Assembly: GCA_903821875.1 (NCBI GenBank)
Contig: CAIJMU010000165.1
Coordinates: forward strand, 1 to 40,695
DNA: 40,695 bases
Reading direction: 5' to 3'
From: an uncultured Spirochaetota bacterium
GTDB taxonomy: Bacteria; Spirochaetota; Spirochaetia; Treponematales; Rectinemataceae
Shown here: positions 10,350 to 19,650 of the stretch, piece after piece
Layout: every line of letters begins with the position of its first letter
Numbering within the stretch: the first letter of the stretch is position 1
Program-made: the position numbers and the translations under genes
The notes under the pieces: model-generated
Told to the model about the DNA's origin: nothing
The model's database searches: none
Seen by the model: only the letters and a program-made list of their open reading frames with translations

Positions 10350-13205
10350 ATGCCCGATACACCCATGCCTGATACAGCTATACCTGCTGATACGCCTATG
10401 ATGCAGCAATACAGGAAGGCCAAGGCGAGGAACCGCGACGCGGTCCTTTTTTTTCGCCTGGGCGACTTCTACGAGATGTTTTTCGAGGATGCCATCGAAG
10501 TCAGCTCCCTCCTCAACCTGACCCTCACAAAGCGGCAGGGCGAGCCGATGTGCGGCATTCCCTGGCATTCGGCGCGATCCTATATCGCAAGGCTCCTCAA
10601 GGCCGGGAAAAAAGTTGCCATTTGCGAGCAGATCGGGGAGGTAGGTGCGGGCAGGGGTCCTGGAAAAGGCATCGTGGAACGCGATGTCGTCGAAGTCATT
10701 ACCCCGGGTACGGCCATGGAGGAGGATTTCCTCGACCGGGCCTCGAACAACTGGCTCTTCGCCCTCTGCGCCGCCCCGGTCCCCGGTGGGGGTAGCCGCC
10801 TCGGTTCAGCCTGGCTCGATCTCGGGACGGCTGAGTTCCGCTGCGCTCCGGTAGGCACCGAAGGCGGAGCCGCGGCTCTTGGAGTTGCGTCTCCAGAAGC
10901 CGCCGAGGATGAGGTGGAAGCCTGGTTGTCCCGCGAACTCCTCAGGCTCGATCCCCGCGAAGTACTCATCCAGCATAGCCTCCTTGAGCGGCCGGAGGTG
11001 GCGCGTGTCCTGGCCTCCCGCCCGGGCCTCATCCTGAACCGTTTGCCGGACTGGTCTTTTGACGTGAAGACGGCGGCTTCGGAACTCCGCGAGCGCTTCG
11101 GGCTGGCTACGCTGAAGGGCCTGGGCTTTGGCGAAGAGGGGCCGGAGCTGGCCGCAGCCCGGGCCCTCCTACGCTACGCTGACGACATGTCGCAGACCTC
11201 GAGCGCACAGATCCGGGGCCTCCTGCCCTGGGAGGCAGGCAACTACGCCCGCATCGACGATTCAACCCTCCGCAACCTCGAGCTCGTCCGCAACCTCGAA
11301 GACTCCACGCGCTCCTTCAGCCTCCTCGAAACCATGGACTTCACAAGGACCAGCCCGGGGGCCCGCCTGATCCGGCAGTGGATCATGGAACCCCTTCGCA
11401 GGAAGGCCGCCATCGAGGCCCGCCTCGAGGCGGTCGAATTCCTTTACCGGCGCCAGCGCCTCCTCGGGGAGCTGCGGGGCCGTCTCTCGCGGGTACTCGA
11501 CACCGAGCGCCTCGCCTCGCGCGTGGCCATGAAAAAGGCGCATGCCAAGGATCTTCTGGCCCTCCGCGATTCCCTTGCGGCCTCCCTCGAAGCCCTGGCC
11601 TTGATGGACAGGGAGGGGGGAAGCGCCACGATGGCCGCTGCCGGGGCTGCCCCTCCCGCGCCTCCAGACGCGGCAGCCATCAGCGAAGCCATTCGGGACA
11701 TCTCCGACACTGTCCTCGACGAGCCCTCGGTCCTCCTCACGGAGGGCAGGCTCATCAAGCCTGGCATCGACGCCGGGCTCGACCACCTCCACTCGCTGCA
11801 GGACAACGCACGGAGCCTCCTCGAGACCTACCTCGAGGAGGAGAAGTCCGCCTCGGGCATCGCCAACCTCCGGGTGAGATATAATCGCATAATTGGATAT
11901 TATCTCGAGGTATCCAAAGGAAAGCTCGAGGCGGTGCCTGCCCACTTCGTCCGGAGGCAGTCCCTGGTCACCGGGGAGCGCTACTCCACCGCCAGGCTCG
12001 CCGAGCTCGAGAGCGAGATCAACGGGGCGACGGAGCGCATCGTCGAGATCGAGAGGCGGCTCTTCCTGGAGCTGCGCGACCGGGTCGAGGCTGCTGTGCC
12101 CCCGGTCCTCGGCCTCGCCCGCGCGCTGGCCGTCCACGACTGCCTGGCCTCCTTCGCGTGGGCGGCGACCGAGCGGGCCTGGGTGAGGCCGCGCCTCTTC
12201 GAGGATGGGAGGCTCCGCATCGCGGATGGCCGCCATCCCGTGGTGGAGGCCCACCTCCCGCCGGGAACCTTCGTACCAAATGGTATCATACTTTCGGCGG
12301 CAGGCGTCCATGCCGCGCTGGATGGTCTGCCGGCGGCTGGCAGCGCGACCGTGGCAGGACCTGCAGGTCCCGCGGGACCTGTTGGTCCCGGGGACGGGGC
12401 CCCTTCCTTTGCGCTCATCACCGGGCCCAACATGGCTGGCAAGTCAACCTTCCTCCGTCAGACTGCCCTCATCGTCCTGATGGCCCAGGCAGGCAGCTTT
12501 GTCCCTGCCTCCGAGGCTGAGATAGGCATAGCCGACCGTATTTTCTGCCGTGTCGGTGCCCACGATGACCTGGCGCGTGGCGAAAGCACCTTCCTCGTCG
12601 AGATGCATGAAACCGCGCGCATCCTCAATACTGCCACAGTCTCAAGCCTCGTCATCATGGACGAGGTCGGGCGCGGCACGAGCACCCTCGACGGGCTCGC
12701 GATCGCACGGGCCGTCATGGAACGCCTCCTCGATCCGATCGGCGCGAGAACCCTCTTCGCTACGCACTACCACGAACTCACCGCCATCGGTCATCCGCGG
12801 CTGCGCAACTTCAGGCTCGCGGTGCTCGAGGAGGAGGGTGACGTCGTCTTCCTCAAGCGCATCGAGGAAGGCGCGGCCCTGGGCTCCTATGGCCTGCACG
12901 TCGCCCGGCTGGCAGGCATCCCGCCTGAGGTCCTCGCGCGGGCAGCCAGCCTGCGCCACGAACTCGAGTCCCGGGAGGCCGGGATGCGAAGCGGGAGTGA
13001 AGTGAAAAGCGGGGTCGAGGGTGGGCTGCCCCTGCGTCAGGGGGCCCCGCACCCGCTTCCTGCAAGGCTTCCGGCTACCCTTGATCTCTTCGATCCGGGC
13101 GAGCTCGTGCTCGCCGAGCTGGCTTCCATCGACATCGATCGCCTCACTCCCCTCGAAGCCCTCAACCGCCTGTCGAAATTGAAGAAATCCCTCAGGAAAA
13201 ACTGA
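10350..13205 (+). CDS. mutS: DNA mismatch repair protein MutS
   Basis: 951 residues. The mismatch-recognition motif DFYEMF (F40, E42) sits in domain I. The lever/clamp region spans about 290-600. The ATPase has Walker A GPNMAGKST (from G692) and Walker B VIMDE (D771, E772) followed by GRGTSTLDG. The C-terminal TPLEALNRLSKLKK (near 930-945) is the typical MutS tail. Known role: recognises mismatches and loops and recruits MutL. Two low-complexity insertions stand out: an Ala/Pro-rich one in the clamp (about 420-450) and a collagen-like GPAGPAGPVGPG directly before Walker A (about 670-683). The ATG at 10350 has no Shine-Dalgarno and lies 9 bases after a perfect TATAAT, suggesting leaderless initiation; ATGs at 10365 and 10398 also lack ribosome-binding sites. 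comF follows after 35 bases. Confidence 0.96.
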   Translation: MPDTPMPDTAIPADTPMMQQYRKAKARNRDAVLFFRLGDFYEMFFEDAIEVSSLLNLTLTKRQGEPMCGIPWHSARSYIARLLKAGKKVAICEQIGEVGAGRGPGKGIVERDVVEVITPGTAMEEDFLDRASNNWLFALCAAPVPGGGSRLGSAWLDLGTAEFRCAPVGTEGGAAALGVASPEAAEDEVEAWLSRELLRLDPREVLIQHSLLERPEVARVLASRPGLILNRLPDWSFDVKTAASELRERFGLATLKGLGFGEEGPELAAARALLRYADDMSQTSSAQIRGLLPWEAGNYARIDDSTLRNLELVRNLEDSTRSFSLLETMDFTRTSPGARLIRQWIMEPLRRKAAIEARLEAVEFLYRRQRLLGELRGRLSRVLDTERLASRVAMKKAHAKDLLALRDSLAASLEALALMDREGGSATMAAAGAAPPAPPDAAAISEAIRDISDTVLDEPSVLLTEGRLIKPGIDAGLDHLHSLQDNARSLLETYLEEEKSASGIANLRVRYNRIIGYYLEVSKGKLEAVPAHFVRRQSLVTGERYSTARLAELESEINGATERIVEIERRLFLELRDRVEAAVPPVLGLARALAVHDCLASFAWAATERAWVRPRLFEDGRLRIADGRHPVVEAHLPPGTFVPNGIILSAAGVHAALDGLPAAGSATVAGPAGPAGPVGPGDGAPSFALITGPNMAGKSTFLRQTALIVLMAQAGSFVPASEAEIGIADRIFCRVGAHDDLARGESTFLVEMHETARILNTATVSSLVIMDEVGRGTSTLDGLAIARAVMERLLDPIGARTLFATHYHELTAIGHPRLRNFRLAVLEEEGDVVFLKRIEEGAALGSYGLHVARLAGIPPEVLARAASLRHELESREAGMRSGSEVKSGVEGGLPLRQGAPHPLPARLPATLDLFDPGELVLAELASIDIDRLTPLEALNRLSKLKKSLRKN

Positions 13206-13240
13206 ATTCCCGAGGGGGGCCGCGGGCGTACTGTCCTTTC

Positions 13241-13945
13241 ATGAAGCTCAGCCCGCCCAGCATTCTTTCAGGACTCCTTGGAATCCTCGCGCCCCTTCCC
13301 TGCGTAGTCTGCGGACAGCCCTGTGGCTCCGACGATTCGCTGCCCCAGCTCTGCGGAGCCTGCGCTGCAGCGATCCGCCCCCTCCCTGAGCCTCGCTGTG
13401 AACGCTGTGGCCGCCCCCTCGTCTCGGAAGCGGGAGCCTGTCTGCGCTGTCGCTCGAAGTCCCCGGACTGGGACGAGGCCTATCCTCTTTTTGACTGGAG
13501 GGGGCCTGCTGGTGTGGCCCTGGCCGCCTACAAGCTCGGAGGAAGGCCTGGCCTTGCGCGTTTCTTCGCAGATGCCCTCGAGCCGGTCATCAGGGCACGC
13601 TGGCCAGACTCTGTCCTCGTGCCAGTACCACCGAGGGCAGAACGCCTCCGGAAGCAGGGCTGGGATCACGTTGAGCTCATTGCGAGGGTCCTTGAGCGTC
13701 GCGGCTTCGAGGTAGCCAGGGTACTCCAGCGAGGCAGCTCCCTTGAGCAGAAAAAACTCGGCCTCGATGCCCGGAGGGAGAACGCGCTCCGCGCCTACCA
13801 CGTCATGGAGGGGCGCGCGGTACCACGCCGTGCCCTGGTGCTTGACGATGTGTACACCAGCGGCGCAACAGCCGGCGCCTGCTCGATGGCACTCAAGGGA
13901 GCCGGGAGCGAGAAGGTCGCCTTTGTCGCAATTGCCGCTGATTGA
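13241..13945 (+). CDS. comF: ComF-family phosphoribosyltransferase-like protein
   Basis: 234 residues, normal for the family. The N-terminal part has zinc-binding CxxC pairs: C21/C24, C38/C41, C53/C56 and C67/C70, i.e. two ribbons. The C-terminal part is a type I phosphoribosyltransferase fold with the PRPP-loop motif LDDVYTSGAT (201-210) and the conserved PVPPRAERLRKQGWDHVELIA segment starting near 128, which is typical of ComF/GntX. Family knowledge: in competent bacteria ComF acts in DNA uptake; in most others the role is unknown, and no reaction should be assumed. The ATG lacks a Shine-Dalgarno; TACTGT lies 6 bases upstream, but with a poor -35. It is probably transcribed mainly with mutS. 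Followed by a 326-base gap before rimP. Confidence 0.88.
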   Translation: MKLSPPSILSGLLGILAPLPCVVCGQPCGSDDSLPQLCGACAAAIRPLPEPRCERCGRPLVSEAGACLRCRSKSPDWDEAYPLFDWRGPAGVALAAYKLGGRPGLARFFADALEPVIRARWPDSVLVPVPPRAERLRKQGWDHVELIARVLERRGFEVARVLQRGSSLEQKKLGLDARRENALRAYHVMEGRAVPRRALVLDDVYTSGATAGACSMALKGAGSEKVAFVAIAAD

Positions 13946-13976
13946 AGGCGTCTGGGGAACTGCCACCTTCGTCGGC

Positions 13977-14006
13977 TTGACAGCCGGCGGCGATAGCGGG
14001 TATTCT
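13977..14006 (+). promoter_or_regulatory. Strong promoter of the rimP-nusA-infB operon leader
   Basis: Perfect TTGACA (13977-13982), 18-base spacer, TATTCT (14001-14006). Predicted start near 14013. It lies in the only sizeable gap between comF and rimP, about 265 bases ahead of rimP, and is the best -35 element I found in the window. Confidence 0.65.
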
Positions 14007-14012
14007 CCCCTA

Positions 14013-14076
14013 TCGGAAAATACTACAGGATTCTCCTCGGGAAGCAGGAAGAGAGTCGCGGGGCGGCTCTTTTTTT
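14013..14076 (+). ncRNA. Putative attenuator leader RNA (or short terminated RNA) ahead of rimP-nusA
   Basis: About 64 bases between the predicted transcription start and the U-run. Two mutually exclusive hairpins can be drawn. The first, antiterminator-like, pairs GATTCTCCTC (14029-14038) with GAAGAGAGTC (14048-14057): 9 of 10 positions pair, including one G-U, with a 9-base loop. The second is the intrinsic terminator at 14052-14076, whose left arm shares bases 14052-14057 with the first. This is the layout of a transcription attenuator. There is no ATG in the segment, so a leader peptide is unlikely. It resembles no riboswitch class I know. A NusA-responsive leader terminator is known ahead of the homologous ylxS(rimP)-nusA operon in Bacillus subtilis; whether this one responds to NusA is inference. 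The alternative is an independent small RNA of about 64 nucleotides. Confidence 0.5.
14052..14076 (+). terminator. Intrinsic terminator in the rimP leader
   Basis: AGAGTCGC (14052-14059), triloop GGG, GCGGCTCT (14063-14070): an 8-bp stem with one G-U pair, followed by an uninterrupted run of seven T (14070-14076, the first shared with the stem). It could end comF transcripts as well as those from the promoter at 13977. Confidence 0.7.
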
Positions 14077-14271
14077 ATTGCTTGGCTGCAATGGAAAGTA
14101 CCGGTGCCGAGGGCAATGTGGAACCCGGGTAATGGTCTGGAACGAAATGTGGGTCGATCGGCTTCTTGGATCGACTGATGGCAAGATGTAGAAGCAGACA
14201 GGATCGATGGGGGTCGGGCGGCCAGTGGCCGTGCCCCACGAGGGATTTGCGGGACGGAGTGGCCCCAGTAC
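14077..14271 (+). other. Rest of the 5' leader of rimP, no gene seen
   Basis: No ORF with coding character and no tRNA (none of the expected clover-leaf arms), although some bacteria carry tRNA-fMet here. Two further hairpins: GTCGATC (14153-14159) with GATCGAC (14169-14175), a perfect 7-bp stem, and GGGCGGCC (14216-14223) with GGCC/GCCC (14227-14236) with a 2-base bulge. The second ends 35 bases before the rimP ATG. No second promoter with good boxes was found here, so rimP expression probably depends on read-through of the terminator. Confidence 0.4.
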
Positions 14272-14745
14272 ATGCAGGAACAGGAAGCGATCCGGAAGGA
14301 CATCGAGGCAGCACTCGCTGCGGTCAAGATCGACCTTCTCGAGTTCACGGTGGGACGGCATCGGGGCGATGTCCAGGTCCATGCTGTCATCTATTCTGCG
14401 ACGGGAACCGGAACCGCCGAGTGTACCAAGGCCCACAAGCTCATTGCTTCCCGGCTTGAAACAGGTTTTGAGATCATCGAGCCTTTTATTGAAGTCTCGA
14501 GTCCCGGCATCGACAGGGTATTCCGTTCAGCGCACGAGTATGAGGTTTTCGCGGGTCAAGGTATCCGCTATCTTCCCGGGGACGAGACGGAGTGGCGGAG
14601 CGGCCGCCTCCTGGGCCTCGGGGACGGCCTGGTCCGCATCGAGGCGGACGGGGAAACGATCGCCATTCCCCTGGCCGGAATTTGCAAGGCGAAACTGGAT
14701 TCGACACGCGAGGGCAAAGCGCCCTCCGCGCGGGGGGGGGAATAA
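14272..14745 (+). CDS. rimP: Ribosome maturation factor RimP
   Basis: 157 residues, the usual RimP (YhbC/YlxS, DUF150) size. Diagnostic features are the CTKAHKLI segment near residue 53 and VSSPGIDRVF (75-84) at the boundary of the N-terminal alpha/beta domain; the C-terminal half is an Sm-like barrel. Known role: binds free 30S subunits and assists late maturation around S12/S19. The start ATG has only a distant GGAG (12 bases), which with the preceding hairpins suggests modest initiation. The stop is followed by nusA after 3 bases, so the two are almost certainly translationally coupled. First gene of the operon, preceded by the putative attenuator leader. Confidence 0.9.
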   Translation: MQEQEAIRKDIEAALAAVKIDLLEFTVGRHRGDVQVHAVIYSATGTGTAECTKAHKLIASRLETGFEIIEPFIEVSSPGIDRVFRSAHEYEVFAGQGIRYLPGDETEWRSGRLLGLGDGLVRIEADGETIAIPLAGICKAKLDSTREGKAPSARGGE

Positions 14746-14748
14746 GCC

Positions 14749-16191
14749 ATGGCTTCGGAAATGGCAGAGGCGATCCGCCAGCTGATCAACGAAAAAGGTA
14801 TCTCTGAGGATCTCATCCTGAAAACGCTCGAGGATGCCCTCCTCGCGGCCTACAAGAAGAAGTACGGCACCAACGAGAACGCGGTGGTGCGCTTCCGTGA
14901 CGATTACGAGGGAGTGGACATCTTCGCGAAGAAGACCATCGTCGAGGAACTCGACGACCCGGTCCTCGAGATCGAGCTCTCCGAGGCCAAGGAGATCTAC
15001 GAGGAGGCCGAGGTCGGCGACGTGCTCGAGCTGCCCGTCGATCCGAAGGAATTCGACCTCCAGTCCGTCATGCTCGCAAAGCAGACCACCCGCACCTCGC
15101 TCCGCGAGATTTCCCGCGACACCCAGTACGCCGAGTACAAGTCCAAGGTCGGAGAGATCATAATTGGTTATTATCAGCGGGAGCGGAACGGCAACATCTT
15201 CGTGGACCTCGGCAAGGTCGAGGGCATCTTCCCGAAGAAGTACCAGTCGCCCCGCGAGGCCTACCACATGGGCGACCGCATCAAGGCCTATATAGTAGAG
15301 GTCGAAAAGGGCCGCATGGGCGGGCCCCAGATCATCCTCTCCCGTTCGCACCCCGAGTTCGTACGCAAGATCCTGGAGCTCGAGGTTCCCGAGATCTACG
15401 ACAAGAGCGTAGAGGTGTTCAAGATCGTCCGCGAGCCCGGCTACCGGACAAAGATCGCAGTCTATTCGCGCCGGGAAGACATCGATCCCGTAGGCGCCTG
15501 CGTGGGCCTGAAGGGCATCCGCATCCAGGCCATCATCCGCGAGCTCGAGGGCGAGAAGGTCGACATCCTCCGCTACGACATCGACTCCAAGCGTTTCATC
15601 CACAATGCCCTCTCACCCGCCGAGGTGCGCGACGTCTACATACTCGACGAAGCCAAGCACACGGCCCTCGTTGTGGTGCCCGACAGCCAGTTTTCGGTGG
15701 CGATCGGCAAGCAGGGCCTCAACGTGCGGCTCGCCAACCGGCTCTGCGACTGGAACATCGATGTGAAGAGCGAGGAGCAGTTCCGCGAGATGGACCGCTC
15801 CGGCGGCTACATGAAGGCCGTCGAGGAACTCTTCGGAGAGGGCGATGTGGGCAACGGCATCTCCGATCTTCCCGGCATGGTGCCGGAGTGGGTCGAAGCG
15901 CTCGCGGTGGCCGGAATCTCCACGCTGGAGGACCTCCTCGATCTTGCCCCGCTCGAACTGCAAGGCATCGAGGGACTCGACGAGGCCGCTGCCAAAGCGA
16001 TACAGTCCATCATCGATGAGAATATAGAGGTCGTCGAAGAGGGCGAAGAAGAAGGCGTCGAAGAAGAGGACGCAACCGAAGATGAATACCAGTGCCCGGA
16101 TTGCGGGGCAAGCGTGACTCCCGAGATGAGTCATTGCCCCTCCTGCGGTGTCGAGTTGAGCTTTGAGTACGAGGACGAGCAGCAAGCTTAA
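14749..16191 (+). CDS. nusA: Transcription termination/antitermination factor NusA with C-terminal zinc ribbon
   Basis: 480 residues. N-terminal RNA-polymerase-binding domain 1-110; S1 domain about 130-200 (GNIFVDLGKVEGIFP); KH1 about 230-290 with GACVGLKGIRIQAI; KH2 about 300-370 with VAIGKQGLNVRLA; then one helix-hairpin-helix repeat about 382-430 (ISDLPGMVPEW...LEGIEGLDEAAAKAI-like) and an acidic linker. The end is unusual: CPDCG...CPSCG with C449, C452, C463 and C466, a four-cysteine zinc ribbon not part of E. coli or B. subtilis NusA. Role: controls RNA polymerase pausing, termination and antitermination. Sits between rimP (3-base gap) and infB (9-base gap; AGGGAG overlaps the end of the gap), the conserved bacterial order. 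Whether the ribbon is shared by all spirochaetes I cannot tell from here. Confidence 0.95.
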   Translation: MASEMAEAIRQLINEKGISEDLILKTLEDALLAAYKKKYGTNENAVVRFRDDYEGVDIFAKKTIVEELDDPVLEIELSEAKEIYEEAEVGDVLELPVDPKEFDLQSVMLAKQTTRTSLREISRDTQYAEYKSKVGEIIIGYYQRERNGNIFVDLGKVEGIFPKKYQSPREAYHMGDRIKAYIVEVEKGRMGGPQIILSRSHPEFVRKILELEVPEIYDKSVEVFKIVREPGYRTKIAVYSRREDIDPVGACVGLKGIRIQAIIRELEGEKVDILRYDIDSKRFIHNALSPAEVRDVYILDEAKHTALVVVPDSQFSVAIGKQGLNVRLANRLCDWNIDVKSEEQFREMDRSGGYMKAVEELFGEGDVGNGISDLPGMVPEWVEALAVAGISTLEDLLDLAPLELQGIEGLDEAAAKAIQSIIDENIEVVEEGEEEGVEEEDATEDEYQCPDCGASVTPEMSHCPSCGVELSFEYEDEQQA

Positions 16192-16200
16192 AGGGAGTTT

Positions 16201-19200
16201 ATGACGGATAACAGCGATAGCCCGCAGAAGCAAAAGGCCAATCTCATCAAGCAACCCAAGGTTGTGGCTGCTCCTGAGGCTGAGGTTCCCGCCCCGCCGC
16301 CCGCTGGCGAGGACCTTTCCGGTGAAAAAAAGAAAGTCGTCGTCGTCAAGAAAAAGGTAGTCGTCAAGAAGCCTTCGTCGGCCCTGCCGACAAAAGCCCG
16401 TGTCGTCGCGCATCATGACGAGGGCGATGAAGGCGAGATTCATGCAGCTCCCCAGACCGATGGCCTGGCAGCGCCGGTTTCCGCGCCCGCTGTCCACCAT
16501 GCGCGGCCTGTCGCGCATGTCCATCACGCGCCGGTTCATCAGGTGGCAGAAGGCGCAGCCGAAACTCCCCGGCCTGTGCACGCTGCAGTAGCCCACCCGG
16601 CAGCATCGCATACAACAGCATCACATGCTGTCGCGAGCCATACACCCGCAGCCCCGGGTTCGGTTCCCTCCGAGCCCCCAGCACCGCCCGTGGAAGGCGT
16701 CGCTTCCCCAGCGGTTCGCGTGGTGGTCCGTCCTGCGAATCCGATAGATGCCCGATATCCTCCTGGCACTCCAGCTCCCCGGCCAGCTCCAAGTCCGCGC
16801 CCCGCCTTCGGGCAGGGTTCAGCAGGAGGCCCCGCTCCGAGGCCGCCCATGGGCGATCGCCCAGGCTATGGCGCTCCGCGTCCGGGCTCCGATCCTGGAG
16901 CCCCGGTTTCTCCCCGTCCGAATGGCTATGCAGGCAACAGTCCGCGTAGCGGTGGCTATGGTAGCTCTGGCAGTCCTGGTGCGCCCCGTCCGGGCGGTTA
17001 CCAGGGTGGCGGTTACAGCGGACAGCGCCCCGGCGGCTACCAGGGTGGCGGCCAAGGCGGCGGCTACCAGGGTGGCGGCCAAGGCGGCGGCTACCAGGGT
17101 GGCGGCCAAGGCGGCGGTTACCAGGGTGGCGGCCAAGGCGGCGGCTATCAGGGTGGCGGCCAAGGCGGCGGCTATCAGGGTGGCGGCCAAGGCGGCGGCT
17201 ATCAGGGTGGCGGCCAGCGTCCCGGCGGCTACCAGGGTGGTGGCCAAGGTGGCGGCTACGGCGGGGCACCCCGTCCCGGCGGCTATCAGGGTGGCGGCCA
17301 AGGTGGCGGCGGCTATGGTGGAGCACCCCGCCCCGCTGGCTATCAGGGTGGCACCGGCTACGGTGGGGCACCTCGCCCCGGCGGCTACCAGGGTGGCGGC
17401 CAGGGTGGAGGTTATGGAGCCCAGGGTGGCGGCTACGGTGCACCCAGGCCGGGCGGTTATCAGGGCGGCGGACAGGGTGGAGGCTATGGCGCCCAAGGTG
17501 GCGGCTATGGTGCGCAGGGCGGCGGTTACGGCGCTCCTCGTCCCGGCGGCTACCAAGGTGGCGGTCAGGGTGGAGGCTACGGCGGTGCCCGGCCAGGTGG
17601 CTATGGTGGCGGCGCTCCCCGTCCTGGCGGTCCGGGACGTCCCGGCGGATTTGGCGGCAGGCCTGGTTTTGGTGGTCAACGTCCCGGTGGTCCCGGTGGT
17701 CCCAACGGCGGCCCCGGTTCCGGCCTCGCCAAGGGTGGTCCGGCACGCAAGCCCATCCGAGGCAAGAAGCCTGCCTATACCAAGAAGGAGCAGGAGGAGG
17801 AGAAGGCCCTCAGGCTGAAAAAGAAGCAGGAAGCCCAGGCCCTCGCCATTCCGAAGTCAATCGACATCATGGAGACGATCTCCGTCTCGGAGCTGGCCAA
17901 GAAGATGAACCTCAAGCCTGCCGACCTGATCGGCAAGCTGATGGCCCTCGGCGTCATGGCTACCATGAACCAGAAGATAGATTCCGATACAGCTACCATC
18001 CTGGCCGAGGAATATGGTTGCGTTGTCAACATCGTCTCCCTCTACGACGAGACGGTCATCGAGAAGGCCGACGACATTGCCTCCGACCTCGCACACCGTG
18101 CCCCCATCGTCACGGTCATGGGCCACGTCGACCATGGAAAGACCAAGCTCCTCGACGCCATCCGCAAGACGGATGTCGTCGCCGGAGAGTTTGGTGGCAT
18201 CACGCAGCATATCGGCGCCTACCAGGTCGATACCCATAAGGGCAAGATCACCTTCCTCGATACCCCCGGCCACGCCGCATTCACCGCGATGCGTGCCCGC
18301 GGAGCCGGGATCACCGATATCGTCGTCCTCGTCGTTGCGGCGAACGACGGTGTCATGCCCCAGACCCGCGAGGCCATCGACCACGCCAAGGCGGCCAAGG
18401 TGCCGATCATCGTCGCGATCAACAAGATCGACCTTCCCGAGGCCAATCCCGACCGCGTCATGACCCAGCTCTCGGAACTCGGACTGATTCCCGAGGCTTG
18501 GGGCGGTACTACCATGTTCTGCCTGATCTCGGCCCTCCAGAAGAAGGGCATACCCGAGCTCCTCGAAGCCATCCTCCTCCAGGCAGAAATCCTCGAGCTT
18601 TCAGCCAATTATGATCGTCCGGCAGAGGGCAAGATCCTCGAGTCCAAGATCGACCACGGCCGGGGCATCGTCGCCACGGTGGTCGTCGAGCGGGGGACAC
18701 TCAGGATCGGTGACTGCTTTGTGGCTGGCATCTATCCCGGAAAGGTCCGCGCCCTCTTCAGCGACAAGGGTGTGCGCATCGACGAAGCCATCCCCTCCAC
18801 ACCGGTAGAGGTCATAGGCTTCGAGGGCATGCCCAACGCCGGAGATCCCTACGAAGTCGTAGCCGACGAGAAGTTCGCCCGCGCCATCTCCGACAAGCGG
18901 CAGGAACTCAAGAAGTACGAGCAGGGTCTCAACGTCAAGAAAATCACGCTCGACAACCTCTACGATACCATCCATCAGGGCAACATCCAGGAACTCAAGG
19001 TCCTCATCAAGGGCGATGTCCAGGGTTCCGTGGAAGCGCTCAAGGGCCTCCTCGAGAAACTCTCGACGGTGGAGGTCAGGCTCAACGTGCTCCGTGCCGC
19101 GGCCGGCGCCATCACCGAGGACGACGTCAACATGGCGGCTGCCTCCGATGCCATCATAATTGCCTTCAATGTCAGGCCTACCCCCGCGGCCAAGCTCCTG

Positions 19201-19650
19201 GCCGACCGCGAGAAGGTCGACATCCGCAAGTACAACATCATCTACCGCGCGCAGGAAGAGATCCAGAAAGCCATGGAGGGCATGCTTGCCCCCGAGCTCA
19301 AGGAATCCGAGATCGGCAAGGTGGAGGTCCGCGAGGTCTTCAAGGTACCCAAGATCGGCCTCATCGCAGGTTCCTACGTCACCGAGGGCTGCGTGCGACG
19401 GAACTGCAAGGTCCGAGTCATCCGCGACAGCATCGAGGTGCACGTCGGCAAGATCGTCTCGCTCAGGCGATTCAAGGACGATGCCAAGGAAGTTGTGGCG
19501 GGCTACGAGTGCGGCATCGGCATAGAGGGCATCACCGATCTCCTGGTCGGCGACACCCTCGAGGTCTACGAGATCATCGAGATTGCCCGTACCCTCTCCG
19601 CACCGATGGCCGAAGGAAAACATGGACGAGATAAGGCAGAGAAAGCTTGA
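16201..19650 (+). CDS. infB: Translation initiation factor IF-2 with very long low-complexity N-terminus
   Basis: 1149 residues. The conserved core begins with an IF2_N helical domain (about 550-605). It then has the G domain with G1 GHVDHGKT (641-648), G3 DTPGH (from 687) and G4 NKID (741-744), followed by domains II, III and the fMet-tRNA-binding C-terminal domain. Role: GTPase that places initiator tRNA and joins subunits. The first 545 residues are low-complexity: Lys/Val stretches, an Ala/His-rich part (about 75-150), a Pro-rich part (150-250) and then about 250 residues of Gly/Tyr/Gln with scattered RPGG (about 250-525), including seven 9-residue tandem repeats. All repeats keep the reading frame and the core is intact, so the gene is functional in appearance. 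AGGGAG lies 6 bases before the ATG. The 3' end overlaps rbfA by 29 bases. Confidence 0.97.
17032..17220 (+). repeat. Seven tandem 27-bp repeats inside infB
   Basis: Seven head-to-tail copies of a 27-bp unit encoding GGYQGGGQG. Copies 1-3 are identical, 4-6 differ only at synonymous Tyr codon or adjoining positions, and copy 7 ends in CAGCGT. Degenerate copies continue to about 17640. Unit length is a multiple of three, so copy-number change by slippage or recombination would keep IF-2 in frame. Confidence 0.95.

Follow-up and report, generated by a model that had tools for sequence, protein, structure and literature searches.

A candidate transcription attenuator with two overlapping helices in the rimP-nusA-infB leader of a spirochaete

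A single promoter and a short leader precede the rimP-nusA-infB operon in the genome of an uncultured spirochaete, which raises the question of whether this operon is governed by a terminate-or-continue decision taken in its own 5' leader and, if so, which factor takes part in it. Our answer, to which we give a probability of about 0.7, is that the element is a transcription attenuator and that NusA is the most likely factor, acting by negative feedback.

The locus and its two helices

The window, by which we mean the whole 40,695-nucleotide stretch analysed, lies on contig C165 of a 4.68-Mb assembly (G000) to which Spirochaetes and Treponema MAGs are the closest named relatives. It carries the gene order mutS, comF, rimP, nusA, infB, rbfA, truB, ribF, rpsO and pnp, in which rimP, nusA and infB are identified by Pfam and the remaining genes are named from their own sequence and the usual order. 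The controlled operon begins on the forward strand with rimP, encoding a ribosome maturation factor (14272-14745, RimP_N PF02576), followed on the same strand by nusA (14749-16191), the gene of the proposed effector, with S1 and KH domains and a C-terminal zinc ribbon, and by infB (16201-19650), encoding translation initiation factor IF-2. A long run of YQGGGQGGG repeats lies in the N-terminal part of the infB product. The comF-like gene (13241-13945, forward strand) lies outside the switch and is assigned from the synteny mutS-comF-rimP-nusA and a double zinc ribbon; its zinc-ribbon domain alone is matched in Pfam.

A sequence scan places a sigma-70-type promoter at 13977-14006 on the forward strand. 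Direct reading gives a -35 TTGACA at 13977-13982, a spacer of 18 and a -10 TATTCT at 14001-14006, so that the 'perfect' promoter of the earlier, sequence-only reading is perfect in its -35 box, but the pair as a whole scores 10/12. It is the sole promoter-like site across 13001-15500, where 0.3 would be expected, and its spacing to the terminator is the same in relatives. The RNA is expected to start at about 14012-14015. Between the terminator and rimP lies a spacer of 195 bases (14077-14271, forward strand), delimited by the promoter scan and by comparison with relatives, in which no second promoter scores above 7/12, as had been claimed; the corresponding spacer is 9 bases long in the same-genus relative G001. 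The spacer also contains a GTCGATC...GATCGAC hairpin without a U-run. In many relatives, AGGT alone stands directly 5' of the rimP ATG.

Both helices of the sequence-only reading are present on the forward strand as it described them. The upstream hairpin (14029-14057), hereafter the antiterminator, pairs GATTCTCCTC at 14029-14038 with GAAGAGAGTC at 14048-14057 across a 9-nt loop, with 9 of 10 standard pairs. The intrinsic terminator (14052-14076) is built from AGAGTCGC (14052-14059), a GGG loop, GCGGCTCT (14063-14070) and seven T at 14070-14076, with a folding energy of -14.6 kcal/mol. It was not listed by an automated terminator scan, probably because greedy stem extension consumes the U-run. 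Alignment and folding both show that positions 14052-14057 belong to both structures: this shared arm, AGAGTC, can pair either with GATTCT (14029-14034) or with GGCTCT (14065-14070), and the two helices are therefore mutually exclusive.

Taken by itself, the window is not decisive. With the terminator left arm held fixed, shuffles of a 37-nt region gave an antiterminator equal to the -8.5 kcal/mol one in 16% of cases, and a stricter arm over 36 nt gave an equally good one in 4.6%. The antiterminator of the window is thus weakly beyond chance (shuffle p 0.05-0.16), and it is conservation that settles the case. It is also the most divergent antiterminator of its family, and the GNRA loop is absent from it.

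Conservation of the terminator and of the antiterminator

The terminator is the widely kept part of the element. Its positions are paired in 99.4% of alignment cells, and the signature GAGTCG-N(2-7)-CGRCTC-T5 is matched in 32 of 59 relatives, whereas a control stem of the same composition is matched in 2 of the 59. Class-wide, the signature is found in 62 of 199 genomes when one extra C or T is allowed before the T run. In both searches each matching genome has one site, the doubled rows in G035, G038 and G345 being a single hairpin read on both strands. In all 45 genomes for which both a stem and a RimP match are listed, the stem is immediately 5' of rimP and in the same orientation, with 45-232 bases separating it from the RimP domain. 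Of 30 loci sampled across the class, a terminator is present at the site in 29 and the GAG(T/C)C core in 28. Nearly every order relative inspected has the terminator, as do many families elsewhere in the class; G039, a 1.1-Mb relative from the order, has no such terminator ahead of rimP. Many Treponema relatives use a GGACTCG...CGGGTC stem, and some f5 members (L040) a GGGCC stem.

The distances within the leader show how the terminator is placed. From the end of the -10 to the U-run we count about 58-67 nt in the family members worked out, whereas from the U-run to the rimP ATG the distance varies from 5 to 262 nt across relatives; the terminator therefore appears to be positioned by the promoter and not by the gene. 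In many relatives the U-run ends 5-12 nt before the rimP start codon, which leaves no room for a promoter between them, and rimP transcripts must cross the terminator. A start for rimP downstream of the terminator, which the sequence-only reading had named as the finding that would speak against it, is thereby argued against. Genus g12 (L002, L006, L007, L010, L012 and L013) has a spacer of 200-260 nt in which a short reading frame, beginning MRFRLS and apparently conserved, may encode a leader peptide.

This terminator raises the possibility of a plain 3' end for the mutS-comF unit, with rimP driven from elsewhere. The comF gene, transcribed in the same direction, stops 31 bases short of the promoter, and any readthrough from it must meet the terminator. 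Against this arrangement stand the conserved promoter between comF and the terminator, the many relatives without room for a promoter after it, the occurrence of the element ahead of rimP where comF is not detected, and the stem itself, since ordinary terminators would not share a single sequence that is absent elsewhere in the genome. We regard it as improbable.

The antiterminator is conserved more narrowly, its range covering essentially the whole of the same family and some of its neighbours. Family relatives with an intact region keep the order promoter, antiterminator, terminator and rimP. Across 23 distinct antiterminators from three families, 8-11 of 11 positions are paired, and every four-base loop is a GNRA tetraloop (12/12, in seven versions). 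The changed 5' arms GGTTTTTCTTA and AACTTTTCTTA, from genomes outside model building, still pair. In shuffle tests 24 of 26 family leaders reach p<=0.05; taking one member from each of 13 genera of the family, the combined p is about 7.5e-13, a figure to be used as a guide and not as a probability since related sequences are not independent.

A covariance model built for the element matches 26 of 30 family genomes. The four misses are G011 and G028, which have no rimP match, G027, where a contig edge falls inside the region, and G019, where the terminator is lost. The locus of this last member (L009) retains the promoter and the 5' antiterminator arm. As the model was trained on most of the family sequences, the fair test is on new genomes, and seven f4 members outside the training set are matched at E values of 3e-7 to 6e-9. 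A search of G000 for further copies of the switch found none beyond the one strong match, the next being at E=6. The covariance search of rimP leaders proposed in the sequence-only reading thus recovers the element, but column-by-column analysis of the antiterminator (MAFFT alignment) shows no significant excess of two-sided changes. We attribute this to the shared arm being near-invariant and to the 3' arm being constrained by its second pairing, with the right arm of the terminator.

The idea that the antiterminator belongs to the class at large was rejected: shuffles give it no support, and the hairpin is lacking in many f3, f4 and f5 members and in other orders, from which it follows that it is not needed for control everywhere. 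By eye, the Treponema relatives L110-L162 have a different upstream hairpin, of the CATTTTAA...TTAAGATG type, which abuts the GGACTCG...CGGGTC terminator and may be an independent variant. The attenuator that had been proposed ahead of rimP-nusA-infB is thus supported both by helix conservation, the terminator being near-universal among the order relatives inspected and the antiterminator among family members, and by position in relatives.

Two further readings need to be weighed against these patterns. The released RNA of 64 nt could be a stand-alone small RNA acting in trans; it would have its own promoter and terminator and would end in a stable hairpin. The sequence-only reading offered this as an alternative, which we consider very unlikely: the element is present in one copy per genome, is strictly linked to rimP wherever checked, and its conservation is confined to the two competing helices instead of an unpaired seed. 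The terminator could instead be a constitutive brake that fixes the level of the operon, with the antiterminator merely tuning its strength. The leader is short and holds no aptamer-like conserved segment, and the antiterminator is present in some clades and missing from others, all of which would suit a brake; the conservation of the stem sequence far exceeds what termination needs, suggesting recognition, and we judge a simple brake to be unlikely, though clearly less so than a small RNA.

Relation to known rimP leaders

Leader terminators at this operon are known. Naville and Gautheret (2010) named the rimP-leader, whose stem is GGGc...gCCC, a motif specific to that leader, and the leader terminator of rimP-nusA-infB is ranked as the most ubiquitous attenuator in bacteria (PMC2965389). 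The element studied here resembles it (RF01770) in having an intrinsic terminator between the promoter and rimP of rimP-nusA-infB, in its distance to the gene (5-262 nt here, 4-130 nt there), and in a stem sequence that is unusually conserved and peculiar to the locus, being absent from the genome's other terminators. It differs in its stem, AGAGTCGC/GCGGCTCT in the window and GAGTCG/CGRCTC across the class, and in the clear antiterminator of the family, whereas in the published leader an antiterminator was not seen in most species (PMC2965389). The gammaproteobacterial tandem rimP-leader, a CCCg...cGGG terminator with an antiterminator, shares the two exclusive helices and the operon (PMC2965389); here the terminator is single, the sequences are others, and the antiterminator is GNRA-capped in relatives. 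In the B. subtilis ylxS(rimP)-nusA leader (Mondal 2016, reviewed in PMC12288461), a leader terminator likewise stands before nusA, with nusA inside the controlled operon; termination there is NusA-stimulated, whereas here NusA dependence is putative and an overlapping antiterminator hairpin is present.

Searches against known families agree with this placement. The RF01770 covariance model has no match above its gathering score at the window locus, and over 59 genomes it gives weak scattered matches, none above the cut-off and none listed at this locus. Rfam at gathering and relaxed thresholds has no relevant match in the window, which bears out the statement that the element is not a named riboswitch. 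Nor did we find a conserved aptamer or tRNA-reading domain, as expected of a metabolite riboswitch or T-box: about 16-25 nt precede the antiterminator, and their sequence varies between genera. Our literature search on spirochaete antiterminators returned no description of the present one, which may exist elsewhere; the main text of a Borrelia Term-seq paper mentions neither rimP nor the gene numbers looked for. By its sequence and position, the element is best classed as the spirochaete counterpart of the rimP-leader, acting like one and a divergent variant by published sequence criteria. To the sequence-only reading this adds that the terminator motif is class-wide and that rimP-leader attenuators had already been described (PMC2965389). 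Across much of the class, a different stem sequence thus appears to do the rimP-leader job, at one copy per genome.

A proposed switch and the place of NusA

We propose that the RNA starts at about 14013 and that the hairpin at 14029-14057 would form first, sequestering the left arm of the terminator at 14052-14076. If the polymerase crosses the U-run fast, the antiterminator would persist and the operon would be transcribed. If it pauses at the U-run, or if a factor aids the downstream hairpin, the stronger terminator would displace the antiterminator, and termination would release a leader RNA of about 64 nt. NusA, a product of its own operon, would stimulate termination and establish autogenous negative feedback.

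The timing of this switch is a prediction, obtained by folding the nascent RNA at equilibrium while its last 8-12 nt are kept hidden inside the polymerase. For the window leader, the antiterminator is the likely state during most of the passage through the U-run, with the terminator prevailing at or after its end. Among 20 leaders folded, the antiterminator is mostly dominant with 10-12 nt hidden and the terminator is dominant in the free RNA. When the hidden stretch is 8 nt, the terminator is already the preferred fold at the last U in about half of them, so that the default state is model-dependent.

We infer that NusA is the best candidate for the switch partner and that it would act by promoting termination. 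NusG and NusA assist the U-run dwell time and terminator hairpin steps in B. subtilis (PMC8060035), where NusA autoregulation through leader termination is established (PMC12288461), as the sequence-only reading had noted. The E. coli operon is repressed by NusA, as cited in PMC2965389, and the same paper suggests NusA as the actor for rimP-leaders generally. NusA feedback is favoured because the proposed switch is set by the very steps that NusG and NusA assist, and because of these precedents for autoregulation.

An attenuator read by another factor, such as RimP, IF-2, NusG, a ribosomal protein or a 30S precursor, is a less probable but serious alternative. Among the products of the operon are factors for 30S maturation and initiation, and the GNRA-capped antiterminator could serve as a protein site. 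The 5' arm AGGATTCTCCTC may moreover resemble the 3' end of 16S rRNA; within the family several genera have GATTCTTTTTAG and so lack the 16S-like CC, and mimicry of the 16S 3' end by this arm was rejected as not conserved. The class-wide part of the element is also the terminator and not the antiterminator.

Starting again from NusA as the reader of the leader, we tentatively extend the model to a class-wide spirochaete circuit, in which a zinc-ribbon NusA would read the GAGUCG...CGRCUC stem sequence-specifically and, in one family, the GNRA-capped antiterminator would make a two-state RNA switch. The changed stem coexists with a NusA that has an additional zinc ribbon, and a clear antiterminator is present in one family as well; with both the RNA site and the protein changed, the question of NusA recognition becomes testable by swap experiments. 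In the set L001-L162 and L219-L229, drawn from the order and from other members of the class, the C-terminal CxxC...CxxC zinc ribbon of NusA is carried by every order member whose ends are complete (106 of 106) and, outside the order, by 10 of the 11 class members examined. The exception, G319, has the GAGTCG terminator despite a NusA without the zinc ribbon, which shows that ribbon and terminator stem are not strictly tied.
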